DNA of 64,000 bases from Yersinia ruckeri ATCC 29473 (GTDB taxonomy: Bacteria > Pseudomonadota > Gammaproteobacteria > Enterobacterales > Enterobacteriaceae): the NCBI RefSeq assembly GCF_000754815.1, contig NZ_KN150747.1:1767908-1831907 (forward strand), given 5' to 3'. Positions 17,484 to 46,368 of the stretch are shown one piece after another. Every line of letters begins with the position of its first letter. Positions within the stretch are counted from its first letter, which is position 1. A program made the translations under genes and the position numbers. Under the pieces are notes generated by a model, which saw only the letters and a list, made by a program, of their open reading frames with translations, made no database searches and was not told where the DNA came from.

Positions 17484-18767
17484 ATGAGGGAGTCAGGCGT
17501 CATCCCTCTTTATCTATCGGTGATTGTTGTGGGGGCGTGGATGATTCACGCATTTGCTGTATCGGATCATAAATGTAGGACTACCGCCGTTTGGATAAAA
17601 TCGTTTCGCTATACATCGCCGGATAAACGTGATCTCAGGATTGATTTTTTAAGAGGGATTGCTTTGGTGATGATGGTTGTCGCCCATATTGAAGTGATTT
17701 CTTTTTTTAATATATTAACTTGGGAACGTTTTGGTTTGACTACCGGGGCTGAGGGATTCGTTATTCTCTCGGGATTTATGCTAGGTGTGATCAACCGCCA
17801 GCGTTTAAAAAAAGAGGCCTGGTTAACGATTAGTTATTCATTGTATAGACGAGCAGTCAAAATATACGTCACTAATTTGTTAATTATACTGACTATTTTA
17901 TTAATAACTAAAATAAGCTTTATAAAGACTTTTGAAGTTACCCATTTTACTGATCGTTTTTCAAAAGTCAGTTATACATTATATCCAATTTATGACCAGA
18001 TAAAAGAGTCTTGGTTTAACATGGTGCTCTATTTACAAATTGGGCCTCATCAGAGCCAAATTTTGGGGTTGTATTTTTATCTATTATTAGTAACTCCTTT
18101 GTTTCTTTATTTATTGAAGCGTGGGTGGGTAAGTATATTGTTATTCTTATCCTTGGCTTTATACATAACTTATCATGTTACTGGGGTAAGAATTACATCA
18201 GCAGAATTTGAGTTTGCTTTCCCACTTTTAGCCTGGCAACTTATTTATGTATTTGGCATGACGATGGGTTGGTATAAAGAAGAATTGCTTTCTTTAGCTC
18301 GTACCCAGGCAGGTTATTGGGGTTTATCCGTTATAGTATTATTTACGCTTTTAATGATGTTTATTGCACAGAATCATACTAATCCATTTATGCCTTATGA
18401 GACTATGCTTCATGTTATAAGTGCGCATAACTTTAATTGGCTCTATGATAATTTTGCTGCAAAAAATGCATTAGGGCCATTACGTGTCATAAATGATTTT
18501 AGTCTATTAATAACATGTTATCTGATGCTGACTTATTTTTGGACGCCTATAAATAAATTATTCGGATGGTTTTTAATAACATTGGGGCAGCATTCTTTAT
18601 ATGTTTTTATCATCCATGTTTATGTGGTTTTATTGGTCAATCAGATGGTGAACTTTAGTTTATGGCATCGAGCATGGTTGCTAAACACACTAGTTCACCT
18701 GAGTGCCTTAATGATTCTATGGTTATTGGCAAAATATGATGTCGGTAGAAGGTTTATTCCTAACTGA
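17484..18767 (+). CDS. OpgC-like membrane acyltransferase
   Basis: A 427-residue polytopic protein with about ten helices, recognised as OpgC family by RIDFLRGIALVMMVVAHIE (residues ~52-70, with the Arg and His conserved in this group), GAEGFVILSGFMLG and the C-terminal LGQHSLYVFIIHVYVVL. OpgC adds succinyl groups to osmoregulated periplasmic glucans; here the acceptor would be the product of the adjacent glycosyltransferase. An unusual first helix (residues ~5-27) precedes the conserved start. It lies 35 bases before the phosphorylase gene. The start codon has no clear ribosome binding site. Confidence 0.8.
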   Translation: MRESGVIPLYLSVIVVGAWMIHAFAVSDHKCRTTAVWIKSFRYTSPDKRDLRIDFLRGIALVMMVVAHIEVISFFNILTWERFGLTTGAEGFVILSGFMLGVINRQRLKKEAWLTISYSLYRRAVKIYVTNLLIILTILLITKISFIKTFEVTHFTDRFSKVSYTLYPIYDQIKESWFNMVLYLQIGPHQSQILGLYFYLLLVTPLFLYLLKRGWVSILLFLSLALYITYHVTGVRITSAEFEFAFPLLAWQLIYVFGMTMGWYKEELLSLARTQAGYWGLSVIVLFTLLMMFIAQNHTNPFMPYETMLHVISAHNFNWLYDNFAAKNALGPLRVINDFSLLITCYLMLTYFWTPINKLFGWFLITLGQHSLYVFIIHVYVVLLVNQMVNFSLWHRAWLLNTLVHLSALMILWLLAKYDVGRRFIPN

Positions 18768-18802
18768 TTTGTATTTTTGAACATAAATTAAAGAGACTCA
18801 AA

Positions 18803-21253
18803 ATGAAAAATACTCCATTGACTCAAGATAAAAATCAGATCAGCGAATTTCGTAATAGTATACTTTACGAACTGAAATATTCTCTTGGGGTGACACGGCA
18901 AACTGCATCATCCAGTGATATCTTCAGTGCGTTAGCATTAGTCGTTCGACGCAATCAAATGGATGATTACCTATGCACACAGGAACGACATTTTCAGTCA
19001 AGAAAAAAACGTATTTATTATATATCGATGGAGTTTTTGATTGGTCAGTCTCTCCGTAATAACTTGATAAATCAAGGTATCATGGAAACGGCCAAAGCTG
19101 CGTTAGAATCTCTCGACGTCGATTTTGAAAGCATTGTTAAAAGTGAAGAAGATGCAGCATTAGGTAATGGGGGATTAGGACGTCTGGCCGCTTGTTTTAT
19201 TGATTCTATGGCAACCTTGGATATTGCTGGTTCGGGTCACGGCATAAAGTATGAATATGGTTTATTTCATCAACAAATTCAAGATGGGAAGCAGATAGAA
19301 AAACCCGATGATTGGCATTCTGCACATTCCCCTTGGCTGATAGAGCATCAAAGTCAGTCGATGATCATTCCGCTTTATGGGCGGATTATGGAGATAAAAG
19401 ATCAGAATGGTCATTACAATCCGATGTGGATGGATTGGAAGATAATCATTGGTGTTCCTCATGACTATCTGGTGTCAGGTTATAATAATAACACTGTAAA
19501 TTCATTACGTTTATACAGTGCTAGTGCTTCGGATTCTTTTGATATTCATATATTTAATCATGGTGATTATCTAAATGCGGTTAATCAAAAAATCGCATCA
19601 GAAAATATCTCTAAGGTTCTTTATCCATCAGATGAAGTACTGGCTGGTAAGGAATTGCGCCTGACGCAAGAGTATTTTTTGGTGGCATGCACATTACGTG
19701 ATGTTATGCATGATTTTTTCTTACATTCTACCCATCTCAATCAGTTGCCAGAATTTGTAGCTATACAACTAAATGATACTCACCCGGCACTCGCCATTGT
19801 TGAGTTAATGCGAATATTGGTTGATGAACATGCTGTTGACTGGGATATCGCTTGGGATTTAACTCAACGAGTTTGTGCCTATACCAATCATACGCTAATG
19901 CCTGAAGCATTAGAAAAGTGGTCGGTTAATTTATTCGAATTATTGTTACCTCGGCACCTACAAATTATCTATGAAATAAACCGCCGTTTCTTATTGGAAG
20001 TACACAGATGGCAACCTGAACGTGAAGACTTATTAGTGTCAATGTCTCTTATCGAAGAAGTGCCAGAAAAGAAAGTTCGCATGGCCTACCTTGCCATTAT
20101 TGGTTGTCATAAAGTTAATGGTGTGGCAAAACTTCATTCCGAATTAATTAAATCAAATCTTGTACCAGACTTTTATCGTTTTATGCCGGATAAGTTCACG
20201 AATCAAACGAACGGTGTGACACCTCGGCGCTGGATTCAACAGGCTAACCCCCGTTTATCTTCATTCTTGGATAGTCACTTAGGTAATGAATGGGTTACCA
20301 ATCTGACTCTTCTCACCAAACTGAAAGCGTTAGCTAATGATAATTGTGTTATTGCTGATTTGGCGGAAATAAAAAAATCCAACAAAATAAAATTAAGTCA
20401 GATCATTACTCGTCAGCAAGGATTGATTATTAATCCGGAAGCGATGTTTGATTGCCAGATTAAGCGTATTCATGAATACAAACGGCAGTTATTGAATATT
20501 CTTTATGTTATCAGTCTTTATCAGAAAATCATTGATGGCGCAGTCTCTATTTACCCTAAAGTACATATTTTCTCGGGTAAAGCGGCACCAGGTTATGCGA
20601 TGGCTAAATTGATCATACAGTTGATTAATCAAGTTGCACTTAAAGTGAATAATGACCCTAGGGTTAATGAACAACTTAAAGTGGTTTTTTTAGAGGACTA
20701 TAAAGTTTCACTAGCGGAACATATTATTCCAGCCGCTGATTTATCTGAGCAGATATCTACAGCAGGAACTGAAGCATCAGGTACCAGTAATATGAAGCTG
20801 GCTATGAATGGTGCGCTAACCATTGGAACGCTAGATGGTGCAAATATTGAAATAAGAGATGCTGTCGGCCATGAGAATTTCTATGTTTTCGGTTTATCAG
20901 CTGAGCAAATTGCTGAAAAAACAGCCAGAGGACGATCGTCGTATGACGAATATTTATCTCATGTAGAACTTAAAGCCGCTATTGATTCACTTATCTCTGG
21001 AACTTTTCATTCTGATAAAAATCTGTTTTCACCCATATTCCATATGTTGGTGAGCCACGGTGATCATTATTTCCATTTGGCTGATTTTGACAGCTATCGT
21101 CATGCACAATATCAAGCGTTAACCGACTATAGTGATACTTACAGTTGGCACAAACGAGCATTGAATACGATCAGTGGTATGGGCGATTTTTCCAGCGACA
21201 GGACTATTCTCGGGTACAGCAAGGATATTTGGGGGGAGGCTAATATTAAGTGA
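18803..21253 (+). CDS. Glycogen/maltodextrin phosphorylase family enzyme (GT35)
   Basis: An 816-residue phosphorylase, the same length as GlgP. It has GNGGLGRLAACF (residues ~112-123), the PLP-lysine segment GTSNMKLAMNGALTIGTLDG (~656-675), and the NDTHPALA motif. It releases glucose-1-phosphate from the non-reducing ends of alpha-1,4-glucan in the cytoplasm. It is not in a glg operon but lies between an OpgC-like acyltransferase and an outer-membrane-type protein, with the next gene overlapping by four bases (GTGA). In this context it probably feeds glucose-1-phosphate to the polysaccharide; that role is inferred. Confidence 0.9.
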   Translation: MKNTPLTQDKNQISEFRNSILYELKYSLGVTRQTASSSDIFSALALVVRRNQMDDYLCTQERHFQSRKKRIYYISMEFLIGQSLRNNLINQGIMETAKAALESLDVDFESIVKSEEDAALGNGGLGRLAACFIDSMATLDIAGSGHGIKYEYGLFHQQIQDGKQIEKPDDWHSAHSPWLIEHQSQSMIIPLYGRIMEIKDQNGHYNPMWMDWKIIIGVPHDYLVSGYNNNTVNSLRLYSASASDSFDIHIFNHGDYLNAVNQKIASENISKVLYPSDEVLAGKELRLTQEYFLVACTLRDVMHDFFLHSTHLNQLPEFVAIQLNDTHPALAIVELMRILVDEHAVDWDIAWDLTQRVCAYTNHTLMPEALEKWSVNLFELLLPRHLQIIYEINRRFLLEVHRWQPEREDLLVSMSLIEEVPEKKVRMAYLAIIGCHKVNGVAKLHSELIKSNLVPDFYRFMPDKFTNQTNGVTPRRWIQQANPRLSSFLDSHLGNEWVTNLTLLTKLKALANDNCVIADLAEIKKSNKIKLSQIITRQQGLIINPEAMFDCQIKRIHEYKRQLLNILYVISLYQKIIDGAVSIYPKVHIFSGKAAPGYAMAKLIIQLINQVALKVNNDPRVNEQLKVVFLEDYKVSLAEHIIPAADLSEQISTAGTEASGTSNMKLAMNGALTIGTLDGANIEIRDAVGHENFYVFGLSAEQIAEKTARGRSSYDEYLSHVELKAAIDSLISGTFHSDKNLFSPIFHMLVSHGDHYFHLADFDSYRHAQYQALTDYSDTYSWHKRALNTISGMGDFSSDRTILGYSKDIWGEANIK

Positions 21254-22131
21254 AATTTTGCAGAACACTCACGGTATTACTCTGCGGGTTACTTTTTTCC
21301 CCGCTAGTGACTGCTGATGAACCAACTAACACCCAAGCGGTTAATTTATTTACCAGCCCTTGGTCTCGCCTTTTCTCTGGTGATGAGGCGAGATTTTCAA
21401 CGGCACTCAGCTATAACTCACCACTGAAAAAGAGTCTGATTAATGTTCCTACCGGAAGGGATTCTTCAGAAAAAGTATACAAATTGAATCAGAAGGGACT
21501 GTTTAGTATGCAATATTCCCCGATAAGTTACTTTTTTGCCAATATGACGGTTCGGGTTCCATTACAAAACACAAATAAATACAGTACCAATTATGTTTAC
21601 AGCTTTGGTTATGATGATTGGCATCCCGGTACTTTTAGCCTGGTGTATGGCAATTACAGCGATAATAATAGTTTTTTCCCTGCGACAGGAACCCAGAGCA
21701 CTCGATTTGAACAAGGTGCCTGGACGCTGGGCTATAAATTTACCTTACCCAAGACGGCAGAGTCTGCGTTATTGATTAACAAAGATGACACGCTGGTTTG
21801 TCAGGTTGGTTATAGCTATGTGCCACGTTACTTTTCTGATGCTTCATCGACTATCAAGGATAATAAACATACCTTGTTAGGGAGTTGTGGTTATACCTTA
21901 CAACAACACTATTTCTTGCGTGTATCGGCTTTTTACTATCCAGATAAGGCTCAGCAGCAACCTTGGAATTATGATTACACCTATAGTTTTGGTTATACCT
22001 CGGGCTATGCCCCAGGCTCTTGGTCAATTCACTATGATAATTACTCGGGGACTCGCTATCCGTGGCGACAGGATGCGAATGCGAATTTTCGGAGTGGGAC
22101 AATCAACCTCAGCTGGACATTACCCTTATAA
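21250..22131 (+). CDS. Exported outer-membrane beta-barrel-like protein
   Basis: Starts with GTG overlapping the phosphorylase stop. A signal peptide (residues 1-22, LTVLLCGLLFSPLVTAD) is followed by a Tyr/Ser/Asn-rich chain with alternating aromatic strands, for example YVYSFGYDDWHPGTFSLVYG and YTYSFGYTSGYAPGSWSIHY, and ends in SWTLPL. This is the look of a 10-14-strand outer-membrane barrel, although the last residue is Leu rather than Phe or Trp. It could be the export pore or an anchoring protein for the polysaccharide. Not recognised as a BcsC, PgaA or AlgE. Confidence 0.65.
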   Translation: MKFCRTLTVLLCGLLFSPLVTADEPTNTQAVNLFTSPWSRLFSGDEARFSTALSYNSPLKKSLINVPTGRDSSEKVYKLNQKGLFSMQYSPISYFFANMTVRVPLQNTNKYSTNYVYSFGYDDWHPGTFSLVYGNYSDNNSFFPATGTQSTRFEQGAWTLGYKFTLPKTAESALLINKDDTLVCQVGYSYVPRYFSDASSTIKDNKHTLLGSCGYTLQQHYFLRVSAFYYPDKAQQQPWNYDYTYSFGYTSGYAPGSWSIHYDNYSGTRYPWRQDANANFRSGTINLSWTLPL

Positions 22132-22288
22132 ATTGAAGGTATAAGAATTTGTGCTACGCTTAATATCGTAGTGAATAGTGAAGTAAGCATGATGTTTTGG
22201 CGAGTATAAAAAGGTCAGGGATGTTGGGCATCTTTTACTGGGAACGATGTTTAATAGAGTGTGTTTACATGCAGCCTTTGGATAACTT

Positions 22289-23575: not shown

Positions 23576-23585
23576 GGACGAAATA

Positions 23586-23933
23586 ATGAACTTTGAAACG
23601 CAGACAATTGACAATGTATTGGTGATCACCCCGTTAATTAGACGGCTAGACGCCTCGGTTTCTCTGAAGTTTAAGGAAGATATACAAGCAATGATTGCTC
23701 AAGGAGCCAAAAATATTTTATTGGATTTTAGCCGGGTGGATTTTATCGACAGCAGCTGTTTAGGTGCTCTGGTTTCATTGTTGAAATCCTTAAATGGCAG
23801 AGGAGAACTTGCTATTTGCTCACTGAACAACAATATCCACGGCATGTTCAAGTTAACCCGAATGGATAGGATATTTACTATCGGTACTCATCAATCCGAG
23901 ACATTACAGCAGATGCAGTCCATAACGCGTTAA
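23586..23933 (+). CDS. STAS-domain anti-sigma factor antagonist-like protein
   Basis: A 115-residue single-domain STAS protein. The phosphorylatable Ser lies in DFIDSSCLGALVSLL (residues ~57-71), the site used by SpoIIAA and RsbV. Its phosphorylation state should be set by the SpoIIE phosphatase before it and the RsbW-like kinase at 25114. Since no sigma factor gene lies here, its target may be an enzyme or the glycosyltransferase, as proposed for SypA-type proteins. Confidence 0.9.
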   Translation: MNFETQTIDNVLVITPLIRRLDASVSLKFKEDIQAMIAQGAKNILLDFSRVDFIDSSCLGALVSLLKSLNGRGELAICSLNNNIHGMFKLTRMDRIFTIGTHQSETLQQMQSITR

Positions 23934-23953
23934 TTTGTAAGGGATACCTATTT

Positions 23954-25117: not shown

Positions 25118-25581
25118 GTTGCCGTCGGAATGACTCACAAGGCTGGCTAATGAGGATAAGTTTGCCTGCGTCACTATCGAGCCTATCCATTCTACATGAA
25201 AAGTTACTTCAATTTATTCAGCCATTGCAGATTGACTCATCCAGCAGTTATGCAATGGAACTTGCATTAAATGAAGCATTTATCAATATTGTGAAACATG
25301 GTGTTAACTATGATGCAACGCAAAATATTATTATTGTGATGCACTATAAAAATAACCAGCTCATTCTGACCTTACAAGATCAAGGGAAGTCCATACCTGC
25401 TGAGTTCTTGCAAAATAAAAGCGGTTTATCTCATTTCCCTGAACGGTCTGCACCAGACTCCTGGCCTGAGAATGGAATGGGGATAATGATGATGTTTAAT
25501 GCTGTCGATGAGCTAAATTATAAAGTTATAGAGGGTGTCAATTACCTGTCTTTGATAAAAAAAATAGAAGATAAAACGTGA
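25114..25581 (+). CDS. RsbW/SpoIIAB-like serine kinase (HATPase)
   Basis: A 155-residue GHKL ATPase. The N box is ELALNEAFINIVKHG (residues ~46-60), G1 is LQDQGKSIP and G2 is NGMGIMMM. Such kinases phosphorylate the STAS partner and bind a sigma factor or other target. The first ATG overlaps the previous stop (ATGA); an internal ATG at 25150 would give a chain starting MRISLPAS, closer to the usual N-terminus. With the SpoIIE and STAS genes it completes a partner-switching module. Confidence 0.88.
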   Translation: MSCRRNDSQGWLMRISLPASLSSLSILHEKLLQFIQPLQIDSSSSYAMELALNEAFINIVKHGVNYDATQNIIIVMHYKNNQLILTLQDQGKSIPAEFLQNKSGLSHFPERSAPDSWPENGMGIMMMFNAVDELNYKVIEGVNYLSLIKKIEDKT

Positions 25582-25677: not shown

Positions 25678-27504
25678 ATGGCTTTTTATTTCTCTTCTTT
25701 TGAAAACAGAAAACCACCATCACCATTGAAAACTCATTGGGTTACTGAGTTTTTATGGCAAATACTAGCGGTTGCTGCACTTATCCTGGGAGCAAATTAT
25801 ATCCGTTGGCGCTGGATGAATTCACTTAATTACGATGCGCTTTGGTATTCTATTCCGTTGGTCATAGCTGAAACGCTGGCCTATATTGGTTCTGTTTTAT
25901 TTACTATCAATCTCTGGAAAGTGAGAGATGTTCCGGTCTTGCCAGCACCTGAAACCATCGATGATTGTATTGCTCCTGAAGACAGGGATGAAAAGCGTCC
26001 GATAAAAGTTGATTTGTTTATTGCTACTTATAATGAAGATGTTGAATTGGTTCGCTTATCGATTCGGGATGCACTGGCCGTAATCTATCCCTTTTCCTTA
26101 GATTATCGTATTTATGTGTTAGATGATGGCAAACGAAGTGAAATGGAGGCTGTCGCAACAGAAGAAGGAGTTAATTATTTAAGTCGTGAAAATAATATCG
26201 GTTATAAAGCCGGTAATCTTCGCCACGGTCTGGAAATGACTGATGGTGATTTTATTATTATTTGTGATGCCGATACGCGTGTTTTTCCCACCATACTTAC
26301 TCATACTTTGGGTTATTTTCGTGATGTTGATGTTGCCTGGGTACAGACACCTCAGTGGTTTTATGATTTACCTCAGGGTAAGCGATTGCCTGTGTGGGCA
26401 AAGCAAAAATTAGGTTCAACAGGTTATTTTATTGGCAAAGGTATCGAGAGGTTAGTCGGCCCTCTCACTGTGGGGCATGATCCATTCTTTAACGATCCAC
26501 AAATGTTTTATGATGTGATTTTACGCCGACGCAATTGGGCTAATGCCGCTTTTTGTTGTGGAGCTGCCTCTATTCATCGGCGTGAAGCTATTATGCAGGC
26601 CGCTCTGCGGCGCTATGTTGATAATATAGAAGATGAAATCGAACAGTATACTAATGAGTTAATCGACGGTGAAACCAAGGCTGATTTGGCTCAGGCTATG
26701 TTGCCTTATGTGGCTCATGATACGGAATTGATGCCGTATAAATTTCATGTATCAGAAGATATCTATACTTCTATCGTTTTACACGGTGATCCCGGACGTC
26801 AATGGCGCTCAGTCATGCATCCGCAAATAGAATCAAAAATGCTTTCTCCCCAAGATTTACTGGCATGGATGATCCAGCGATTTAAATACGCTGCGGGTTC
26901 AATGGATATCGCTTTACATGATAGGCTTTTTACCAGTAAGCGGATTAAGCTCAGTTTTATTCAAAAAATAATGTACGGAACCACCTTTTGGTCCTATTTT
27001 GCCTGTATTTGGAACACCGTGTTTTTAATTGCGCCGTTAATTTATTTATTTACGGGCATCCCGCCGGTTTCGACTTACTCATCTCCTTTTTATCTTCATT
27101 TTCTGCCTTTTATGATCATCTCTGAATTGGCATTTATGTTCGGAACTTGGGGTATCTCAGCGTGGGATGGAAAATCATCTTTTCTTGCTTTATTTTCCAT
27201 GAATTTACGGGCACTGGATACGGTGTTGCGGGGAGAGAAAATCAAGTTTCATGTGACCCCTAAAGAACGGCAACAGGGTAATTTTTTATCCTTGGTTAAA
27301 CCTCAACTGGCGATTATCGGACTGACTTTAGTGGGGTTGATTTGGGGCGCTATTCAAATAGCTGAAGGGAACGTAAAAGATCCCTCTGGCTTTGTTATAA
27401 ATATCTTCTGGGGAGCAGCAAACATAGCGGCCATGATACCAATGGTCTTGGCCGCACTTTGGCAACCTGAGTATACTGAATCTACTGTACAGGAGGAGTT
27501 CTGA
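25678..27504 (+). CDS. BcsA-like membrane glycosyltransferase, family GT2, without PilZ
   Basis: A 608-residue processive synthase. Two helices (residues ~25-75) precede the GT-A domain, with DLFIATYNED, VLDDGKR (first Asp), CDADTR (DxD) and the acceptor-site SEDIYTS. The product-channel motif that is QxxRW in BcsA reads QRFKYAAGS here. Four or five helices follow and it ends without a PilZ domain, so direct c-di-GMP activation as in BcsA is not expected. The ATG at 25678 follows GAGG at ideal spacing, while an earlier TTG does not. The next gene starts on the last base of its stop codon. Confidence 0.88.
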   Translation: MAFYFSSFENRKPPSPLKTHWVTEFLWQILAVAALILGANYIRWRWMNSLNYDALWYSIPLVIAETLAYIGSVLFTINLWKVRDVPVLPAPETIDDCIAPEDRDEKRPIKVDLFIATYNEDVELVRLSIRDALAVIYPFSLDYRIYVLDDGKRSEMEAVATEEGVNYLSRENNIGYKAGNLRHGLEMTDGDFIIICDADTRVFPTILTHTLGYFRDVDVAWVQTPQWFYDLPQGKRLPVWAKQKLGSTGYFIGKGIERLVGPLTVGHDPFFNDPQMFYDVILRRRNWANAAFCCGAASIHRREAIMQAALRRYVDNIEDEIEQYTNELIDGETKADLAQAMLPYVAHDTELMPYKFHVSEDIYTSIVLHGDPGRQWRSVMHPQIESKMLSPQDLLAWMIQRFKYAAGSMDIALHDRLFTSKRIKLSFIQKIMYGTTFWSYFACIWNTVFLIAPLIYLFTGIPPVSTYSSPFYLHFLPFMIISELAFMFGTWGISAWDGKSSFLALFSMNLRALDTVLRGEKIKFHVTPKERQQGNFLSLVKPQLAIIGLTLVGLIWGAIQIAEGNVKDPSGFVINIFWGAANIAAMIPMVLAALWQPEYTESTVQEEF

Positions 27505-28865
27505 TGTCATTCAAATATAACCTCCTTAAAGCGAGAAGTTATCTGGCCATGGTGATAGGTATTTTAATCGCGTTTTCTATTGTGATATATGTCGAAAAAA
27601 ATTCTCAAGATGTGGGCGATTCCCGTGTCCATATTCCCTTGAGTGTGGGGCGGCCATTAATACCGACTCCACGCCCCCTGAGCGCGGAAGAAATTATTTG
27701 GGCCAAGACTGCGTGGCAATATTTTATAAATAATACCCAACCGAGTGGTTTAGTGAACTCGGTAGATCAATATCCATCGACCACGATGTGGGATACCAGT
27801 AGTTATTTTATGGCGCTGATTTCAGCTCAACGTATTGGCATTATTCAACAAGATGAATTTGATCAGCGGATCAGTAATGCATTGGCCGCATTAGCTAAAT
27901 TGCCTTTGGTTGAGGGGAAACTACCCAATAAAGCCTATAATACGCAAACATTGGCTATGGTTAATTATAATAACCAACCCAGTTTGCAAGGAATCGGCTG
28001 GTCGGCTATTGATATTAGTCGTATGATGGTGCCATTAAATATATTGGTTTGGAATTACCCACAACATGCTGTTGAGGTAAATAAGGTTATATCTCGTTGG
28101 CATTTAGATGCGTTAGTCGCCAATGATCAATTACAAGGCTCTGCGATTAATGATAAAACTCATACCATTTCTTTGCATCAGGAAGGGCGTATGGGTTATG
28201 AGCAATATGCGGCGAGAACGCTACAGTTGGTCGGTATTAATGTCAGTTTAGCCATTGATTATACTGCACATCTTAAATTTATTAATGTTGAAGGAATATT
28301 AGTTCCTGATGATGACCGGGTCTCTAAAAAAGATGGGGCAAATACATTTATTGTCAGCGAACCCTATATGTTGACAGGATTAGAGCTGGGGTTTGATGAT
28401 AATTCATCTGAATTAGCATGGCGAGTTTTTAAGGCTCAGGAAAATCGCTTTCAACGTACAGGTATTTATACTTCAGTTAGTGAAGATCACGTAGATCAAG
28501 CGCCTTACTTTATTTATAGCACTTTGCATTATGCTGATGAAGACTGGGCAGTGATTACGGAAAAAGGCGAACGTGTTGATCAGCTGCGACAGCTATCAAC
28601 TAAAACGGCATTTAGTTGGTATGCTTTATGGCGCACGCCCTATAGTGAACAAACCCGAAACCAATTAAATCGTTTGATGGATCAAAACAAAGGTTGGTAT
28701 AGCGGTATTTATGAAGTGAACAATAAGATAAATACATCATTTAATGCTAATACTAATGGCGTAGTATTAGAAAGTTTAGCTTTTATCAATAGTGGAAAAC
28801 TACTTTGTATTGCCTGTGCTCAGGCGATACAACCCGTTGGTGCAATAGATAAACAACTAAAGTAG
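27504..28865 (+). CDS. DUF3131 protein, membrane-anchored (first of three)
   Basis: A 453-residue protein with an N-terminal signal anchor (residues ~13-30, LAMVIGILIAFSIVIYV) and the DUF3131 domain from ~60 to 440. Family landmarks are AKTAWQYFINNTQ, STTMWDTSSY (residues ~93-102), LPNKAYNT, HQEGRMGYEQYAA and the C-terminal GWYSGIYE. The fold is probably an alpha/alpha barrel like that of GH144-type enzymes; no activity is established. It overlaps the GT2 gene (TGATG) and so is translationally coupled to it. Confidence 0.85.
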   Translation: MSFKYNLLKARSYLAMVIGILIAFSIVIYVEKNSQDVGDSRVHIPLSVGRPLIPTPRPLSAEEIIWAKTAWQYFINNTQPSGLVNSVDQYPSTTMWDTSSYFMALISAQRIGIIQQDEFDQRISNALAALAKLPLVEGKLPNKAYNTQTLAMVNYNNQPSLQGIGWSAIDISRMMVPLNILVWNYPQHAVEVNKVISRWHLDALVANDQLQGSAINDKTHTISLHQEGRMGYEQYAARTLQLVGINVSLAIDYTAHLKFINVEGILVPDDDRVSKKDGANTFIVSEPYMLTGLELGFDDNSSELAWRVFKAQENRFQRTGIYTSVSEDHVDQAPYFIYSTLHYADEDWAVITEKGERVDQLRQLSTKTAFSWYALWRTPYSEQTRNQLNRLMDQNKGWYSGIYEVNNKINTSFNANTNGVVLESLAFINSGKLLCIACAQAIQPVGAIDKQLK

Positions 28866-28874
28866 GAAGGTTTT

Positions 28875-30467
28875 ATGATGGAAAATCAGTCAGTTTTGAT
28901 AAGATCAAGCACCATGATGAAGGTGGGGTGCTTGATTTTTATTCTCTTGGTTATGCCGTCTATTAAGGCCTATTCTGCATTGCCTAATGATAAATTAGCG
29001 GCAGAAAACTACCCAATACGACACGGTGAGTTAACTCCGCGAGAAATGGCAATTGCCGTTAACGCTTGGCAATATTTTGTACATAATTTTCAGCCTACTA
29101 CGGGGTTGGTTAATGCGGTAAATAATTATCCCTCAACGACGATGTGGGACAGCGCCTCTTATTTGTCAGCACTGGTTTCAGCCCGTGAATTGGGAATCAT
29201 TAATAAAGAAGAATTCGATCATCGAATGCTGCCATTCTTGAAGACCTTGAATAATCTGTCGTTATTTCAGGGGCAATTGCCAAATAAAGCCTATAACACC
29301 ATCACCGCTGAAAAAGTTAACTATATGAATAAACCTGGTGAAATAGGCTTTTCCGCTATCGACAGTGGTCGAATGTTAATTTGGTTGAAGATTATCAAAG
29401 AACGTTACCCTGAATATGCCAATAGCATTGATAACGTTGTCTTGGGGTGGGATTTCTCACATGCTATCGACAGTTGCGGTACGTTATATGGGGCAATTTT
29501 GGACAAAAATAATGTCCCTATGTATGTACAAGAAGGGCGTTTGGGTTATGAAGAATATGCCGCCAGTGGTTTTCAACTTTGGGGATTTTCAACGTGTCAG
29601 GCATCTTTAGCACAACCTTATGATTTAGCTAATATTTACTGCGTATTGGTTCCTTATGATTCACGAGACCCGCGAACTCATTATCAACATAATTATGTGG
29701 TTACTGAATCTTATATTTTACATGGACTTGAAATGGGTTGGGATCGCAGTGACGACCGTGCCAATAAAGTTGGAAGCTACAGCCACCCATGGATGAGGGA
29801 TTTTGCTAATCGAGTCTATCAGGCACAGGAAAATCGTTATCGTGAAACCGGGATACTGACCGCGCGTTCAGAACATCAGTTAGATAAAGCACCTTACTTT
29901 GTTTACGACACTGTTTTCACCGATGGTTATAACTGGAACACGATCACTGACAAGGGGGTTTTTGTACCTGAAGATGCGGCACTATCCTTAAAAGCGGCGC
30001 TGGGTATGTGGGCATTATGGCAGTCGCCCTATACCGACAGGTTATTTGATGCCATAGAGAATGCCAATATTAAGGGGAAGGGTTTCAATGAAGGACTTTA
30101 CGAAAATGGGCAGGGACCAATAAACGAATTTACGGCAAATAATAATGGCATCATGTTGGAAGCCTTATTATTTAAAAAAGAAGGTAAAATACTTCGTTTC
30201 ACCAGTGGTGACCCTAGCCACAGCGACTATATTCCCTCACTGTGGGAAAGGCAGCTTATTAACGCATTTGATGAGAATAACAGTAAAAGAAATCGACCAT
30301 TTATTGATGCAACTCCTAGTTTGAAAGCATTCTGCGATAAAAATGGTCTCGCAATACGTAAAGCGTCAGATTGTAAAAGCTGTCAATGCGCGCAGTGTCA
30401 GGATGAAAACAGCAGCAATAATTTATTTAAATTACCGGCAGCCACATCATCATGCGCAAAACAGTGA
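28875..30467 (+). CDS. DUF3131 protein with Cys-rich tail (second of three)
   Basis: A 530-residue secreted or periplasmic protein with a signal peptide (VGCLIFILLVMPSIKAYS, residues ~18-35). It keeps all the DUF3131 landmarks: AVNAWQYFVHNFQ, STTMWDSASY, LPNKAYNT, QEGRLGYEEYAA and ENGQGPINEFTANNNG. After the domain comes a tail with four closely spaced cysteines (DCKSCQCAQC, residues ~501-510) that may bind a metal or form disulfides. The start follows AGGAAGG. The next gene begins 16 bases before its end. Confidence 0.85.
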   Translation: MMENQSVLIRSSTMMKVGCLIFILLVMPSIKAYSALPNDKLAAENYPIRHGELTPREMAIAVNAWQYFVHNFQPTTGLVNAVNNYPSTTMWDSASYLSALVSARELGIINKEEFDHRMLPFLKTLNNLSLFQGQLPNKAYNTITAEKVNYMNKPGEIGFSAIDSGRMLIWLKIIKERYPEYANSIDNVVLGWDFSHAIDSCGTLYGAILDKNNVPMYVQEGRLGYEEYAASGFQLWGFSTCQASLAQPYDLANIYCVLVPYDSRDPRTHYQHNYVVTESYILHGLEMGWDRSDDRANKVGSYSHPWMRDFANRVYQAQENRYRETGILTARSEHQLDKAPYFVYDTVFTDGYNWNTITDKGVFVPEDAALSLKAALGMWALWQSPYTDRLFDAIENANIKGKGFNEGLYENGQGPINEFTANNNGIMLEALLFKKEGKILRFTSGDPSHSDYIPSLWERQLINAFDENNSKRNRPFIDATPSLKAFCDKNGLAIRKASDCKSCQCAQCQDENSSNNLFKLPAATSSCAKQ

Positions 30468-31828
30468 AATCTGCCGCGATTGCCTGGGTGATGGGTTCAG
30501 GGCTACTAGGTGCTGCGTTTATAGGCGGTATGTCTGTGGGGAGCAGCATTATGCACAGCACCGTGGCCTATTCTGTCCGCAGTGGTGTACTAGCGGATAA
30601 TCAGCAATTGTGGGCGAAAGTTGCTTGGCGTTACTTTATTAAAAATACACAGGCGGGAACCGGATTGGTTAATTCTCTGGATAATTACCCGGTTGTTAAC
30701 CTCTGGCAAATCGGCGATACATTGATCGCATTAACCGCCGCTGCGCAATTAGGACTGATTGAGCGGCAGGAATTTGATCAGCGTTTGTCGCAATTATTGG
30801 CCACAATAGGTCGTTTACCACTGGTGGACGGGAAAGTGCCAAATCAGCGGTACAATACCGTCAATGGACAACTAACTGATTATGCTAACCAACCAAAGCC
30901 ACTGGGATGGTCAGCACAAGATATCGGTCGTTTAATGATCGGCTTAAAAATCGTGGGCAATTTTTATCCTGAATATGCTGAGTATCTGGATAAGATTCTA
31001 TTACGGTGGAATTTTTGTCAGGTAATTGATAATAATGGATTATTATTAAAATCGGCTGCGGTTAATGGTCAGTTTATAACAAAATCGGATGGGGTACTGG
31101 GGTACAGCGAATATACCGCAGGTGCGTTTGGACTGTGGGGTTTTCCTGTAGGAATATCAGCAAATCTTCCTTATAACACTAGATTTATTTATGGCATTCC
31201 GATCGATTTCGATATCAGAGATCCCCGGATAACTCATATGCCATCTGTCGTCGTCAGTTTGCCTTATCTACTGACTGCAATGGAATTAAAGAATACTCCT
31301 ACCTTTAAACAACAAAAAAAACGCATTGAAAATGTCTATCGGGTACAAGAAAAACGCTGGCAAAAAGAACATATATTAACAGCCCGAAGCGATTACTTGA
31401 CCTCAGTTGCACCTTATCATGTTTACGATACGGTATTCGCTAATGGTTACCATTGGAATACGATCGACGAGGGTGGGAAGTTTTATCCAGAACTGGCATT
31501 GGTATCGACACGTGCCGTTTTTGGCTTATGGGTTTTGTGGAATAGCCCTTATACCGATGCATTAATGCAGTTAACCCAGATGCAGTATGATGATCAACGC
31601 GGATGGTATGAGGGGCGTTATGAAAATAATGGATCTTATAATAAGACCATCAGTCTGACGACTAACGCTATGGTATTAGAAACTCTGCTCTATAAAAAGG
31701 TAGGGAACTTAATTAACACTGAACCTACTACGGGATATCTCGACGTACGCATGCGTGATATTTTTTCACGACCACAGTTATGTCTACCGCAGGAAAGAGC
31801 CTCAAGTAGAGCGGTAGCGTCGAAATGA
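30452..31828 (+). CDS. DUF3131 protein, diverged (third of three)
   Basis: A 458-residue protein with an N-terminal signal or anchor (AIAWVMGSGLLGAAFIGG). It aligns with its two neighbours along the whole domain (AWRYFIKNTQ, PNQRYNT, YDTVFANGYHWNTID, GWYEGRYEN), but the strongly conserved TTMWD is VNLWQ and QEGR(M/L)GY is SDGVLGY. It may thus be a non-catalytic or altered-specificity paralogue. It overlaps the preceding gene by 16 bases and the GH2 gene by four. Confidence 0.85.
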   Translation: MRKTVKSAAIAWVMGSGLLGAAFIGGMSVGSSIMHSTVAYSVRSGVLADNQQLWAKVAWRYFIKNTQAGTGLVNSLDNYPVVNLWQIGDTLIALTAAAQLGLIERQEFDQRLSQLLATIGRLPLVDGKVPNQRYNTVNGQLTDYANQPKPLGWSAQDIGRLMIGLKIVGNFYPEYAEYLDKILLRWNFCQVIDNNGLLLKSAAVNGQFITKSDGVLGYSEYTAGAFGLWGFPVGISANLPYNTRFIYGIPIDFDIRDPRITHMPSVVVSLPYLLTAMELKNTPTFKQQKKRIENVYRVQEKRWQKEHILTARSDYLTSVAPYHVYDTVFANGYHWNTIDEGGKFYPELALVSTRAVFGLWVLWNSPYTDALMQLTQMQYDDQRGWYEGRYENNGSYNKTISLTTNAMVLETLLYKKVGNLINTEPTTGYLDVRMRDIFSRPQLCLPQERASSRAVASK

Positions 31829-34047
31829 ACATTAATGGTCGGTATCGTGCTGCTATTTTAAGTTTGGCGCTTCTTTTACTGCTTATCTCGCCAGTTATTT
31901 ATGCTCAGTTGCCGTCCACTACAGATTTGGCCGGTCAATGGCGGGTAAAAGACGGAAATCCACCGGCCACTGAAGCCTGGAGTGGTACGCTGGATGATGA
32001 TTCGTGGCAACGGCTGAAAGTACCCGCTAATTGGTATAGTGAAGGAATCGATCATCAAGGGATATTGTGGTATCGCACTCGATTTACATTACCGGTTTTA
32101 GATACTGATAATATGGCAACCTTAATATTTGATGGCGTCGATTATCAAACAGAGGTTTGGCTCAATAATCAGAAAGTCGGGCAACATAAGGGCTATTTTC
32201 AGCGGTTCAGCATCGATATCACCGATGCTGCTCAGCGTGAGAATGTGCTGGCTATGCGGGTAGATAGCCCTGACGAAACTCCGGGTAAAGTTTGGTCATT
32301 TCATAAACAACTGATTAAAGGGGTGCTCAATCATCATGATACCCGGCCAGGCGGTGCTTGGTCGGCGCACGGACAGGACGCTAATTCGGGCGGTATTTGG
32401 GCGCCGGTAGCGTCACATATCAGCCGCGGAGCGGTGATTGACAACTTACTGGCGGTGCCGGATTGGTCCGAGGGGCTTGAACATCCGATTCTAAAAGTGA
32501 GTGTGGATTATCGGGCTAACCGCAACCGCTCGGTTATTATGCGGCTACGCCTTATTCCCGATAATTTTATCGGGCAATCTTATCAACTGGAAAAAAGTGT
32601 TTCACTGGTTGCCAGCCAGCATAATGCACAAACGCTCACGACTAATTTTCTTATTGATAATCCTGCTTTATGGTGGCCGTCTGGTCATGGTAAACAAAAT
32701 CTTTATCGGCTGGAGGTCAGCTTTTCCGATCGACTTGGGATCATGGATACGAGCCATGTGCGCACCGGATTACGACAAATAGCGATAGATTCGCGAGAAA
32801 AAAGTTGGTCAATCAATGGTAAGCGCCTGTTTATTCGAGGCACTAACTACATTGGTAGCCCGTGGCTGGGAACGCTGGCTCCCGCCGATTATCGTCGTGA
32901 CTTAGTGATGATGATGCAGGCCAATATCAATGCCATAAGAGTACATGCCCATGTTGCAGGACGTGCTTTGTACGATCTGGCTGATGAGATGGGTATACTG
33001 CTCTGGCAAGATTTCCCGTTGCAATGGGGATATGACAATTCAGCCACTTTTGCCAGAGAAGCGGCAAGGCAGGCTGCAGATATGACGCGGCAGTTTGGCA
33101 GCCATCCATCGATTATAGTGTGGTCTGGGCACAATGAACCTCCTTGGGATGCCACTTGGATGCAATATCGTTATTCCGACTGGCGACCGGGTATCAACCG
33201 GGTATTAACCGCGAGTGTGGCGCAGGTTCTCGCTCAGGATAATAGCCGCATCACTCATGCCTATTCAGCAACTGGCGAGCACTACTGGCAAGGTTGGTAC
33301 TCTGGGCAGAAAAGTGACCACCTTAAACCGGCAACGACTTCAATAATTAGCGAATTTGGCGCGCAAGCTTTACCCGATTTACCGACGTTAAAAACCATCA
33401 TTCCCACGGCGGAACTGTGGCCGAAAACGACGGATAAAAAGGATCAGGGCTGGCGCATCTGGGCATATCATAATTTTCAACCTCATGAGACATTTGAATT
33501 AGCCAAAATCACTCGTGGGCCAAATATCAATACGTTTATTACTCATAGCCAACAATACCAGGCAAGTTTAATCCAGCTTGCCGCAGAGAGTTATCGACGG
33601 CAACGTTATCAACCAGTTGCGGCTTTATTTCACTTTATGTTTACCGAAACATGGCCATCAATTAATTGGGGGATAGTTGACTATCTCCGTCATCCCAAAC
33701 CCGGTTATTTTGCTTTGCAGCGAGCTTATCAACCCATTTTACCCTCGATTGAACCTAAAACTGAACATTGGATAGCAAACCAGATCGGACGCATTGGATT
33801 GTGGGCTATTAATGATAACTGGCAGGACTATCCGCAGGCATCATTACATTGGAGAATAACGCAAAATGGAATGGTGCTCTCTGCGGGGATGCAGCCAATA
33901 AATCTAATGGCAGATAGCGGCCAAAAAGTGATTGAATTACAAGTCATACCTCGTAGTTTTCACGAGATAAATGTGACGAGTGATATTATCAATAAGCAGG
34001 AGGAAATATTGGGTCACAATGAAATGCAACTTCAGGTTCAGCCATGA
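31825..34047 (+). CDS. Secreted glycoside hydrolase family 2 protein (beta-mannosidase-like)
   Basis: A 740-residue exported enzyme. After a signal peptide (residues ~8-27) comes the GH2 sugar-binding domain (~30-210), an immunoglobulin-like domain (~211-325) and a TIM barrel. The acid/base Glu is in VWSGHNEPPW (~430-439) and the nucleophile in IISEFGAQ (~509-516). Members act as beta-mannosidases, beta-galactosidases or exo-glucosaminidases; the exact specificity cannot be read here. It is the last gene of the coupled GT2-DUF3131 run and would trim or recycle the polymer in the periplasm. Confidence 0.85.
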   Translation: MNINGRYRAAILSLALLLLLISPVIYAQLPSTTDLAGQWRVKDGNPPATEAWSGTLDDDSWQRLKVPANWYSEGIDHQGILWYRTRFTLPVLDTDNMATLIFDGVDYQTEVWLNNQKVGQHKGYFQRFSIDITDAAQRENVLAMRVDSPDETPGKVWSFHKQLIKGVLNHHDTRPGGAWSAHGQDANSGGIWAPVASHISRGAVIDNLLAVPDWSEGLEHPILKVSVDYRANRNRSVIMRLRLIPDNFIGQSYQLEKSVSLVASQHNAQTLTTNFLIDNPALWWPSGHGKQNLYRLEVSFSDRLGIMDTSHVRTGLRQIAIDSREKSWSINGKRLFIRGTNYIGSPWLGTLAPADYRRDLVMMMQANINAIRVHAHVAGRALYDLADEMGILLWQDFPLQWGYDNSATFAREAARQAADMTRQFGSHPSIIVWSGHNEPPWDATWMQYRYSDWRPGINRVLTASVAQVLAQDNSRITHAYSATGEHYWQGWYSGQKSDHLKPATTSIISEFGAQALPDLPTLKTIIPTAELWPKTTDKKDQGWRIWAYHNFQPHETFELAKITRGPNINTFITHSQQYQASLIQLAAESYRRQRYQPVAALFHFMFTETWPSINWGIVDYLRHPKPGYFALQRAYQPILPSIEPKTEHWIANQIGRIGLWAINDNWQDYPQASLHWRITQNGMVLSAGMQPINLMADSGQKVIELQVIPRSFHEINVTSDIINKQEEILGHNEMQLQVQP

Positions 34048-34169
34048 GCAGCACTGCTTTTTGTTAGTAGAAATCAATTAAGTTAATTTTGAACGCTATT
34101 TTTACTGTCTAAAATGACAGAGTGATCCTAAGCTTTAGCCCATAATCATTATAACTGGATGGATTTTAT

Positions 34170-37100: not shown

Positions 37101-38738
37101 CTGACGTTAGAAAGCCAGCTTGGTAAGGGAAGTTTATTCCATTTCACCATAATGCTATCTCTGCCTTCAGACACCAATTTGGTTATTAATAATGAAAAAC
37201 CAGATGTTCTGGCAACCAGAGCTTTGGCATTGAATAATTTACGCGTCTTGGTTGTTGATGATAATCCGACGGCTTGTGAGCTCATTAAGCAGATGGGGGA
37301 ATCACTTAAATGGATAGTGGATGTCGCAACCAATGGTAGTGATGCACTACAACGGATAAAACAGCAGTATGATAATGGAGTTGCCTACGGTGCTTTATTT
37401 ATTGACTGGAAAATGCCAGGTTTGGATGGTTGGCAAACCAGTAAATATGTCCGTGAAATGATGCCAGTAGGTAACTTGCCAATGATTGTCATGGTAACCG
37501 CCCATGATCGCGAAATGTTATTACAGCGCAGCGAAGAAGAGCAGGCATTGCTGGACGGTTATCTGGTGAAGCCGATCACGGCTTCTATGTTGTTGGATTC
37601 AGTGATTGATGCATTAAGTGAACATCAACAGCCAGATGTCCCCAAATTGGTCACCGCTGAAGCTTCGCACCGATTGTCTGGTATAAGGCTATTAATTGTT
37701 GAAGATAATTTGAATAACCAACAAATCGCCCGTGAATTACTTGAGGATGAGGGCGCGGTGGTTAGCATGGCCAATCACGGTAAAGAAGCGATTGAAATAT
37801 TAGAACATAATCCATCTTTATTTGATCTCGTCTTGATGGATTTACAGATGCCGGTTATGGATGGGTTTAATGCTACGCAATATATTCGGAAAAGTATTGG
37901 ATTAAAAAACTTACCGATTATAGCCATGACGGCCAACGCCATGGTATCGGACCGCGATGCCTGCCTTGCTGCCGGAATGAACGACCATATTGGTAAGCCC
38001 TTTGACTTGAATAATCTAATACACATTATACGAAAATACACGGGGCAAACAGATGTTATCACTACGGTAAATCGTACCGCATCCTTCACATTATCTCCTG
38101 AGTTGAAAACCGTTGCAGCTACGGCAGGAATTGATGTGGATTCCGCCCTTAATAGATTGGGCGGGGATTTAACGCTGTACCAAAAAATGCTATCGCTGTT
38201 CAGTGATGATTTGGCTAATTTGCCTACTCAGTTGGAGAAATTGTTGGCTAAAGGTGACCTCCTGTCAGCATCCCGTCTGCTGCATACAATCAAGGGACTC
38301 GCTGCACAGTTGGGGGCAAATGAACTCTCTTTGAGTGCGGGACAAAATGAGGCGTTATTGAATAACGGTGTGATGCCTACAGCTGATAGAGTGAATCAGT
38401 TATTGAGTGAAATACGCAATAAAGTCTCCGCTACCCATGCTGGAACAACGGCATTAATTCAAATACTATCGAAAGACCATTCTAAAATTACCTCGGTAGA
38501 GGAGTTTGATATACAAGCTATTGAGCTGGAAGTAAATCGTTTGATATTGCTATTACAAAGCTCAGATATGGCTGCATTAGAGGTAATGAATAAATTAATG
38601 ATAACTTTCGGTAAGCAACTCAATGGAAAGTTATCTACTCTTAATGATGCAGTAAATCAATTGGATTTTGCTAAAGCTATCCAGTTATGCCAAAGCATGA
38701 TGGATAATCTCCCGACTCAAAGAAATGAGAAGATATGA
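34170..38738 (+). CDS. CHASE/PAS hybrid histidine kinase with two receivers and HPt
   Basis: A 1522-residue inner-membrane sensor. Order: helix ~27-46, periplasmic CHASE domain (~85-300), helix ~336-358, three PAS domains (~375-490, 500-620, 635-755), HisKA with SHELRTPMNAILG (~778-790), HATPase (~890-1010), receivers with IDWKMPGLDG (~1077) and MDLQMPVMDG (~1221), and an HPt domain with HTIKGLAAQLGA (~1371). GGATGGA precedes the ATG. It starts 122 bases after the GH2 gene, and the next gene overlaps by four bases. Its likely outputs are the receiver-GGDEF protein and the receiver-SpoIIE protein. Confidence 0.9.
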   Translation: MNSSPFNVHKQKVHPSWLSFKLQQNILLPLIIFIMGLAISGAGARWLYNEIEANAKVDFQRNVDRVSGEVIRRFSQPIYGLNGAKGTYATNNQLTRAQFHAYVASRNLPVEFPGVRGFGFIQHVERSHLNDFIAETRADGAPNFALRQLQDKQHDDLYIIKYIEPAEKNQGADGLDIGSESVRREAALSAINSGKPTLSGTIRLVQSNVNTPGVLLFVPVYKWGTNPTTPAERQASLVGLLYSPIVIADLLRDIPEFVNGRVDVELFDSLNELSNQTLVFDADGSKYADFIPDEKHTNQTIAARIFHNTNILPLPGREMTLRVSSTPAFEELTQRYAPWLILVFGFLLSSALALLIWQQVSGRNRAEMLARNMTADLERLALVAKNTSNAVIITDVNRKIVWVNEGFERITGYSRAEAFGKSPGKLLQCKDTDQAVASKMRTALDAGESFKGEIVNRDKSGREYWIELEIQPRYNDQNEPIGFMAIESDISERKATYQRLEAALRENNALLSTLNLHGIISTADSTGTITDVNNAFCNISGYRREELIGQTYRLVDSHTHSAEFWQSMWNDIASGISWRGEICNKAKDGSLYWVDTTIAPFNNSAGQIERYISIQVDITANKEQQASLIIAKNQLVRAADVAELGIWTLNVSDGSLSFDDRMNDIYSLPESLRNTPIPLTYWYSLLHPEDISEVKKAIETALENVSVYRQIFRIFVKNQVHFIQSTGTVERDENGKAMLMMGINRDITQQREAENILKTARETAEEANKAKSAFLANMSHELRTPMNAILGMLTLLRRTGLDRKQADYAAKSETATRTLLRLLNDILDFSKIESGKMALECIPFDIHVMLRDLAVILSSNLKATKVEVLFDIDPSLPQFVEGDSMRLQQILTNLGGNALKFTEQGEVVLFIKVIDRSRHQVRLQFGVRDTGIGIAPENQKTIFSGFTQAEASTTRRFGGTGLGLVISQRFVALMGGELTLESQLGKGSLFHFTIMLSLPSDTNLVINNEKPDVLATRALALNNLRVLVVDDNPTACELIKQMGESLKWIVDVATNGSDALQRIKQQYDNGVAYGALFIDWKMPGLDGWQTSKYVREMMPVGNLPMIVMVTAHDREMLLQRSEEEQALLDGYLVKPITASMLLDSVIDALSEHQQPDVPKLVTAEASHRLSGIRLLIVEDNLNNQQIARELLEDEGAVVSMANHGKEAIEILEHNPSLFDLVLMDLQMPVMDGFNATQYIRKSIGLKNLPIIAMTANAMVSDRDACLAAGMNDHIGKPFDLNNLIHIIRKYTGQTDVITTVNRTASFTLSPELKTVAATAGIDVDSALNRLGGDLTLYQKMLSLFSDDLANLPTQLEKLLAKGDLLSASRLLHTIKGLAAQLGANELSLSAGQNEALLNNGVMPTADRVNQLLSEIRNKVSATHAGTTALIQILSKDHSKITSVEEFDIQAIELEVNRLILLLQSSDMAALEVMNKLMITFGKQLNGKLSTLNDAVNQLDFAKAIQLCQSMMDNLPTQRNEKI

Positions 38739-39733
38739 CTATACCCCATTCTTTTTCTCAAGATTTGACCTTGAATTTACCCGGGGTGGGAAAGCCCAAG
38801 ATCCTTATTGTTGATGATCATCCGATCAACATTCAGATCCTCTATCAAGCATTTTCTGCCGATTATCATGTGTGCATGGCCACCAGTGGCAAACAGGCTA
38901 TCGACGTCTGTATCAATCAGCATCCTGACCTGATTCTATTGGATATTGAAATGCCTGGCATGAATGGTTTTGATGTCTGTGCCAGGCTCAAGTCATCTCC
39001 AGACACTCAGGATATTCCCATTATCTTTATCACTGCGCATATTGATGAAGAGACAGAAACCCGTTGTTTTAACGAAGGTGCTGTCGATTTTATTAGTAAA
39101 CCCATTAACAGGAATACCGTTCGGGCTAGAGTGAAAACGCACCTGTTACTTAAGGCTCAATCTGACTTACTACGTGAACTGGTATATTTAGATGGATTAA
39201 CCGAAGTACATAATCGGCGTTATTTTGATAAGCAGTTAGATCTAGAGTGGAAGCTGTCTAATCGTAACCATACTTCACTTAGCATGATTATGATTGATGT
39301 TGATTTCTTCAAAAAATATAATGACTTATATGGTCATCAGGGTGGGGATGATTGCTTACGGAGAGTCGCCAAGGTTATTCGAGATGCGCTTAGACGACCT
39401 GCCGACCTGGTTGCTCGCTATGGCGGCGAAGAATTTGTTTGTTTGCTTCCTGATACCGAGCTGGCTGGGGCAATGGATATTGCGGAAATGATCAGACTAC
39501 GAATTCTTGAGCAGAAAATCCCCCATACTGGATCCACCGTTTATCCCTTTGTCAGCATCAGTCTGGGTGTCTGTTGCAAAGAGACTCATAACACTTCCGC
39601 GCCAGCAGATTTATTGCTTCAGGCGGATTCCCAACTCTATCAGGCAAAGGAAAATGGTAGGAATCAAACTTGTGGTGAGTTTTTAGTGTCTTCTAAGGGG
39701 AATTTCCCCGTTTTCAACGGGAACGTTAAGTAG
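38735..39733 (+). CDS. Response regulator diguanylate cyclase (receiver-GGDEF)
   Basis: A 332-residue protein with a receiver (residues ~20-140; VDDHPIN, phosphoacceptor LLDIEMPGMNG, Lys in SKPIN) and a GGDEF domain (~165-315; active-site GGEEF, with IDVDFFKKYND upstream). It makes cyclic di-GMP when phosphorylated. The inhibitory-site RxxD position is occupied by RRPADL. It is coupled to the hybrid kinase gene, like WspR- or PleD-type pairs. The cognate effector is unknown, since the GT2 of the locus lacks PilZ. Confidence 0.92.
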   Translation: MTIPHSFSQDLTLNLPGVGKPKILIVDDHPINIQILYQAFSADYHVCMATSGKQAIDVCINQHPDLILLDIEMPGMNGFDVCARLKSSPDTQDIPIIFITAHIDEETETRCFNEGAVDFISKPINRNTVRARVKTHLLLKAQSDLLRELVYLDGLTEVHNRRYFDKQLDLEWKLSNRNHTSLSMIMIDVDFFKKYNDLYGHQGGDDCLRRVAKVIRDALRRPADLVARYGGEEFVCLLPDTELAGAMDIAEMIRLRILEQKIPHTGSTVYPFVSISLGVCCKETHNTSAPADLLLQADSQLYQAKENGRNQTCGEFLVSSKGNFPVFNGNVK

Positions 39734-46351: not shown

Positions 46352-46368
46352 GTAGCCAATATTCTTAA

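Follow-up and report, generated by a model that had tools for sequence, protein, structure and literature searches.

What does a compact block of glycan and signalling genes in Yersinia ruckeri make, and what controls it? We address this question for a 64,000-nt stretch of strain ATCC 29473 (contig NZ_KN150747.1, positions 1,767,908-1,831,907; genome of 3.77 Mb in two contigs), hereafter the window. According to the coordinates and open reading frame listing of the window, the block comprises 14 genes, all on the + strand, at 17484..39733. With the start of the GT2 synthase gene set at 25678, adjacent genes overlap by 1 to 16 nt at six of the 13 junctions, and the widest intergenic gaps are 157, 122 and 96 nt. 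A first-pass annotation had described a co-directional block with overlapping junctions and had named its gene families, and both descriptions are borne out: Pfam assigns 13 of the 14 genes to families, while the remaining one, which has no Pfam match at E 0.001, is identified as a barrel protein by its predicted model. We consider it fairly probable that the block is a synthase-dependent exported-glucan locus with a partner switch of its own.

The block is conserved well beyond this strain. Among 24 other Yersinia genomes, five have strong DUF3131 matches, and four of these five retain the complete 14-gene order, from OpgC to the diguanylate cyclase, with protein identities of 79-94%. The fifth, Yersinia aldovae (G010, locus L033), keeps most of the order, but breaks in its GT2 and D3 (third DUF3131) frames suggest that the system is decaying in this strain, and the stretch ends inside the GH2 gene. 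Since the order recurs in four congeners and mostly in a fifth, the block is more than a chance assembly. A scan of a species-genome collection with the GT2 alignment gave 350 confirmed relatives, of which the best 80 by GT2 similarity were kept, with flanks of up to 10 kb (17 of the 80 are shortened by contig ends), and scanned with the window-protein profiles. GT2, by choice the query, and DUF3131 occur together in all 80 loci; DUF3131 is present as three frames in 47 loci, two in 19, four in seven and one in seven, broken genes counting as more than one frame. The STAS protein and the RsbW-like kinase are each found in 71 loci, the receiver-SpoIIE phosphatase in 70 (as is the phosphatase domain alone), the barrel in 60, GH2 in 55, OpgC in 37, the pyrophosphorylase in 27 and GT35 in nine. 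The count for the hybrid-kinase profile (53/80) is unspecific, since every receiver or kinase is a potential match, and was not used.

By the organisms in their record titles, the loci belong to Enterobacterales, Photobacterium, Shewanella, Ferrimonas, betaproteobacteria, Thiothrix, Leucothrix, kin of Rhodobacter, Desulfoluna, and Kapaibacterium and Ignavibacteria metagenome-assembled genomes; carriers include Yersinia, Serratia, Enterobacter, Edwardsiella and many environmental bacteria. In a sample of the order (295 genomes, our own included), GT2 is found at E <=1e-60 in 10 genomes and DUF3131 in 12. All 10 are among the 12, GT2 never occurring without DUF3131, and the remaining two DUF3131 matches, at E 9e-5 and 8e-4, are weak; a 2,873-residue frame contains one of them. 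A sample of the class (369 genomes, our own included) has 12 genomes with a DUF3131 match, of which the sole strong new one adjoins a GT2 (42% identity); the other ten are weak, six of them in frames of 2,827-2,956 residues. The first-pass annotation had staked its reading on the genes being conserved together, and together they are found, both across the 80 loci and in the linkage within the order sample.

The GT2 synthase is listed with a TTG start at 25633, and the conserved part of its relatives begins at the ATG at 25678 (608 aa), which is more likely the true start. Against solved structures, the GT2 profile matches only cellulose synthases at E 0.001, with the E. coli BcsA chain at E 6e-40. 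The protein shares 26% identity with the genome's own BcsA, scores 187.6 bits against an NCBIfam CelA cut-off of 699.1, and shows no PilZ among its Pfam matches at E 0.001. The acceptor-site motif QxxRW, defining for BcsA, is absent; the position occupied by QRIRW in the genome's own BcsA reads QRFKY. Of 83 GT2 frames, some of them fragments, 79 have QRFKY, one has QRYKY and three have neither, and the other GT2 motifs are conserved. Among the best 20 of 185 plasmid matches, 17 lie at 54-72% GT2 identity and the next at only 27%. Because the CelA cut-off is missed, PilZ is not matched, QRFKY takes the motif position and identity drops so steeply, the GT2 looks like a discrete subfamily, the product of which is not readable from the sequence. 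The GT2 alignment comprises five of the eight known copies (our own and seven relatives).

With BcsA as the best match of the GT2, and with 6 of the 17 close plasmid records naming it 'cellulose synthase catalytic subunit', the block might be a variant cellulose (beta-1,4-glucan) locus, in which the GT2 would make a cellulose-like product and DUF3131 and the barrel would stand in for BcsZ and BcsC; we regard this as unlikely. Identification as a known cellulose, poly-GlcNAc, OPG or syp system was considered and rejected: the GT2 falls under every NCBIfam cut-off, and OpgG and a full BcsA are encoded elsewhere in the genome.

The DUF3131 family (PF11329) is matched at three places in the whole genome, all inside the block (D1, D2 and D3). 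The predicted model of D1 (pLDDT 94.8) is an (alpha/alpha)6 barrel that superposes on members of the SGL clan (GH144/162/189/192-194). DUF3131 is also related to the clan in sequence (E 7.2e-8 for 8wy1 and 1.1e-4 for Cgs, against 0.04 for a pilin, the match that follows), and hhalign aligns its N-terminal part with the clan at probabilities of 96.1 and 96.9 over 98 and 205 columns. In one alignment, D1 residues Glu227 (E in 86 and D in 3 of 95) and Asp170 (D in 89 and E in 5 of 95) fall at the sites of the catalytic acid (E211 of CpSGL, E1356 of TiCGS) and of an acidic residue of the E142 type, a tentative placement, as the C-terminal half alone aligns with a probability of 6.5. The clan-defining Phe and Tyr are given as F286 and Y367 of XcSGL in the available part of the source (PMC12102758); at these positions the sequence of DUF3131 cannot be placed reliably in register with the clan. 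Model and sequence together link DUF3131 to the fold, and probably to the chemistry, of enzymes for beta-1,2-glucan. The DUF3131 alignment holds 92 of 112 non-redundant stretches (from 208 matches) and the three of the window; that of the Cgs-like loci holds seven of eight, L128 being left out for a stop in frame. Literature searches, with subscription journals mostly outside their range, found no paper on PF11329/IPR021478 and nothing on opgC with cellulose synthase and SpoIIE. Separately, the tail of D2 behind the DUF3131 domain bears a cysteine cluster (C500, C503, C505, C508), and seven genomes (G055, G449, G540, G553, G556, G577 and G598) have a fourth DUF3131 gene, on the opposite strand and ~16-21 kb from the triple cluster.

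The signalling genes of the block resemble an RsbU/V/W-type partner switch. The STAS protein has Ser56 and Ser57 in 72 of 72 sequences, the RsbW-like kinase has Glu54, Asn58 and His62 in 72 of 72 and Asp89 in 71 of 72 (window included in each case), and the phosphatase stretch has Asp19 in 71 of 71 and Asp154 in 72 of 72, with a receiver on 62 of 72 phosphatase frames. We take the conserved STAS serine, the RsbW ATP-site residues and the PP2C aspartates to be the functional sites of this type, and as judged by alignment the key residues are intact. The best HATPase_c_2 match of the genome is this RsbW-like kinase. PP2C and RsbW profiles share a frame in none of the 80 loci, and kinase and phosphatase are separate genes in the window.

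Could the switch simply be a sigma-factor control that adjoins the glycan genes? In the part of the source available, HsbA of Pseudomonas aeruginosa works via the anti-sigma factor FlgM (PMC5085249), a precedent for such control. However, Pfam finds no sigma factor among the 14 block genes (a scan of the block and not of the related loci), the genome's sole SpoIIE match lies in the block, and linkage of switch and GT2 recurs in Enterobacterales, betaproteobacteria, Desulfoluna and Kapaibacterium. Sigma-factor control is thus rather improbable.

The first-pass annotation had also singled out the phosphorylase and cyclic di-GMP (c-di-GMP) genes as marks of the locus. This holds for the Yersinia block, in which the receiver-GGDEF gene comes last in four of the four congeners fetched that far. 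In the wider set it does not: GT35 is present in nine of the 80 loci and GGDEF in one within 10 kb, so that neither defines the system. The flank stops short of the Yersinia position, so that L040, L041 and L063 are uninformative for GGDEF. A glycogen-fed system as a general rule and a central place for c-di-GMP were both discarded on these counts.

The GT35 protein is one of three in the genome, with 45 and 46% identity to the other two, and retains the stretch around the lysine that we presume to be the cofactor lysine; it may feed in glucose-1-phosphate. Glu438 and Glu510 of GH2 are invariant among the 52 sequences, that of the window included, which score over 400 bits. The barrel protein is modelled as a beta-barrel in which 14 strands are at least three residues long, and the barrel profile matches no solved chain at E 10; the absence of a fold from the match list carries no weight. 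The barrel alignment holds 31 of 36 stretches (from 52 matches) and the window. KdgM and NanC are uptake porins, and their place among the best barrel matches raises the prospect of a degradative locus that scavenges external glycan, the barrel importing oligosaccharides that GT35 and GH2 would degrade; GH2 and most SGL-clan enzymes are indeed hydrolases, and GT35 is degradative. Yet a synthase-type GT2 stands with DUF3131 in every locus (as the choice of query dictates) and never without it in the order sample, Pfam finds no sugar transporter or phosphotransferase system (PTS) match among the block genes, and the D1 and GT2 genes share one base. We therefore consider a degradative locus very unlikely.

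In the glucan-export system that we favour, the Hpt-bearing hybrid kinase would relay phosphate to the receiver domain that the PP2C phosphatase carries, and this phosphatase and the RsbW-like kinase would together set the phosphorylation of the STAS serine. Because the block has no sigma factor, we propose that STAS or the kinase acts on synthesis, most likely on GT2 or, in Yersinia, via the diguanylate cyclase. The pyrophosphorylase would provide the nucleoside diphosphate (NDP)-sugar, fed in some genomes by the glycogen-drawing GT35 phosphorylase; it reaches no NCBIfam cut-off among the best 25 of 36 matches, and its nucleotide and sugar are unassigned. GT2 would polymerise and extrude the chain, the DUF3131 enzymes would act on it in the periplasm by cleavage or transglycosylation, GH2 would trim its ends, OpgC would add acyl groups, possibly succinyl, and the barrel would release the product. 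We infer the signalling order, and likewise the substrate, linkage, cell compartment and export. The gene set fits the view of the first-pass annotation that the block is a self-contained unit for making, trimming and, presumably, exporting a glycan. More tentatively, and with the balance against it, the loci may represent a new class of bacterial glucan system that extends over several phyla and in which an RsbU/V/W switch is coupled directly to a glycan synthase.

Several observations weigh against the favoured reading of a glucan-export locus with its own switch. STAS and RsbW are missing from nine loci. Five of these are shortened by contig ends, and the four of full length (Serratia L043 and L044, Edwardsiella L057 and L062) have GT2 and DUF3131 with neither switch gene within 10 kb, indicating that the switch is either dispensable or encoded elsewhere. 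The C-terminal half of DUF3131 has no sequence alignment to the SGL clan (hhalign probabilities of 6.5 and 0.2), so that the catalytic register and the other two signature residues of the clan are at most predicted. One group of the clan is described as lacking a known substrate in the part of the source available (PMC12102758), so that the fold cannot fix the linkage. The fold matches of the barrel are tied among sugar porins, FapF and autotransporters. Finally, the locus counts come from the best 80 of 350 relatives by GT2 similarity, including the 17 that end early.

Patchiness within the genus (5/24) and GT2 relatives on plasmids fit horizontal spread. The plasmids, among the matches listed, are those of Pantoea, Chimaeribacter and Salmonella, and on a Pantoea stewartii plasmid GT2 is accompanied by a block that includes DUF3131. 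In this plasmid locus (L145, 8759-22503), the interval from D3 to the kinase contains a globin gene, an IS66 element separates the phosphatase from STAS/RsbW, and the OpgC match is in two pieces with no annotated gene. Two large plasmids of Salmonella enterica (CP074295.1, CP053577.1) carry a GT2 relative of 71% identity. A blastn comparison of 5,426 E. coli genomes with the GT2 gene of an Enterobacter relative, at the DNA level only, gives no match at E 1e-20. The GC content of the block is 36-47%, within 36 to 50% for the whole window, and 41-45% in other Yersinia. Because the 40-48 kb stretch to the right of the block is equally AT-rich, composition alone is no sign of recent transfer, and AT-richness as proof of recent arrival, a feature also of the other Yersinia blocks, was dropped.

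Table 1. Genes of the block, with window coordinates.
Feature	Position	Strand	Basis and occurrence
OpgC-like membrane acyltransferase, 427 aa	17484..18767	+	PF10129 E 1.2e-53; 37/80 related loci
GT35 alpha-glucan phosphorylase, 816 aa, accessory	18803..21253	+	PF00343, TIGR02093 above cut-off; 9/80 loci
Predicted outer-membrane beta-barrel, 293 aa, signal-like N terminus by eye	21250..22131	+	
Receiver + SpoIIE/PP2C phosphatase, 428 aa	22289..23575	+	PF00072, PF07228; residues conserved
STAS anti-sigma-antagonist-like protein, 115 aa	23586..23933	+	PF01740, TIGR00377 above cut-off
NDP-sugar pyrophosphorylase, 387 aa	23954..25117	+	PF00483; 27/80 loci
RsbW-like kinase (HATPase_c_2), 155 aa	25114..25581	+	PF13581
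GT2 processive synthase, QRFKY motif, 608 aa	25678..27504	+	No PilZ match
DUF3131 protein D1, hydrophobic N terminus by eye	27504..28865	+	PF11329 E 5.6e-138; SGL-clan-like (alpha/alpha)6 barrel
DUF3131 protein D2, cysteine-rich tail	28875..30467	+	PF11329 E 2.4e-123
DUF3131 protein D3, weakest score of the three	30452..31828	+	PF11329 E 3.1e-104; subgroup differences
GH2 glycosidase, 740 aa, signal-like N terminus by eye	31825..34047	+	GH2 Pfam domains; 55/80 loci
CHASE-PAS-HisKA-HATPase-receiver-receiver-Hpt hybrid kinase, 1522 aa	34170..38738	+	Pfam domains
Receiver-GGDEF diguanylate cyclase, 332 aa, accessory	38735..39733	+	Pfam domains; GGDEF in 1/80 loci within 10 kb

No Rfam family reaches its gathering score inside the block, and promoter and terminator scans of 17100-36000 give fewer sites than shuffled sequences (43 vs 57.3 and 13 vs 16.1). 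Elsewhere in the window, a fluoride riboswitch (47196-47258, -) and a cspA-type thermoregulator RNA (45949-46400, +) exceed their Rfam gathering scores, a second diguanylate cyclase, of MASE2-GGDEF type, lies ~8 kb from the block (47823-48941, -), and an ArsB-type arsenical pump lies upstream of it (9531-10904, +).

A recurrent glycan system is hereby defined that public records annotate piecemeal, as in Pantoea stewartii, where its parts appear as 'cellulose synthase catalytic subunit', 'DUF3131 domain-containing protein' and 'SpoIIE family protein phosphatase'. DUF3131 is placed beside enzymes of known chemistry, and a clear assay is therefore available. Should the synthase prove to be the target of the switch, this would show a role for kinase/STAS pairs without a sigma factor, which would also bear on SypA as far as its description was available.

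Known systems share parts of this design. Like bcsABZC, the block has a GT2 catalytic core beside (alpha/alpha)6-barrel proteins, but it differs in having no PilZ, BcsB or BcsC matches, in its QRFKY motif and in missing the CelA cut-off. The single glucan-synthase enzyme of 2,800 aa that bears GH189 and GH94 has a GH189 domain resembling DUF3131 in fold and N-terminal sequence, and both systems join a glucan synthase, a phosphorylase-type gene and OpgC (in 37 of the 80 loci) in one unit; in the window, however, the BcsA-type GT2, DUF3131 and GT35 are separate genes, and GT35 replaces the GH94 part. The syp locus of Vibrio fischeri, in the portion of its description available, likewise places a polysaccharide locus under a serine kinase and a STAS protein (SypE and SypA), but is an 18-gene locus. 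The partner-switch domains of that system are fused in SypE.

The nearest worked-out parallel to the switch, by analogy of its components, is HptB-HsbR-HsbA-HsbD of Pseudomonas aeruginosa, which serves in biofilm control and links an Hpt relay and a receiver-bearing phosphatase to a STAS-type anti-anti-sigma factor and a diguanylate cyclase. In the accessible part of that account, HsbR is kinase and phosphatase in one and HsbD has no receiver, whereas the window encodes kinase and phosphatase separately, and no glycan synthase is described (PMC5085249). The closest match in gene content is accessory block 3b of K. pneumoniae, reported without a function, in the part of the text available, in a 2026 population study of linked accessory genes (PMC12974863). 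Its gene list names a cellulose-synthase-like glycosyltransferase, three DUF3131 proteins, OpgC, a hybrid kinase, and an anti-sigma factor with its antagonist, but not GT35, the pyrophosphorylase or a receiver-GGDEF protein. Comparison of gene lists, and not of sequences, indicates that block 3b is probably the same system, and with so similar a list the statement of the first-pass annotation that no described enterobacterial locus has this combination was too strong. Relative to block 3b and the other systems, three things are new here: a defined core, in which GT2 with QRFKY and DUF3131 are usually joined by the partner switch, the barrel and GH2; the range of bacteria that carry it; and the connection of DUF3131 with the SGL clan.
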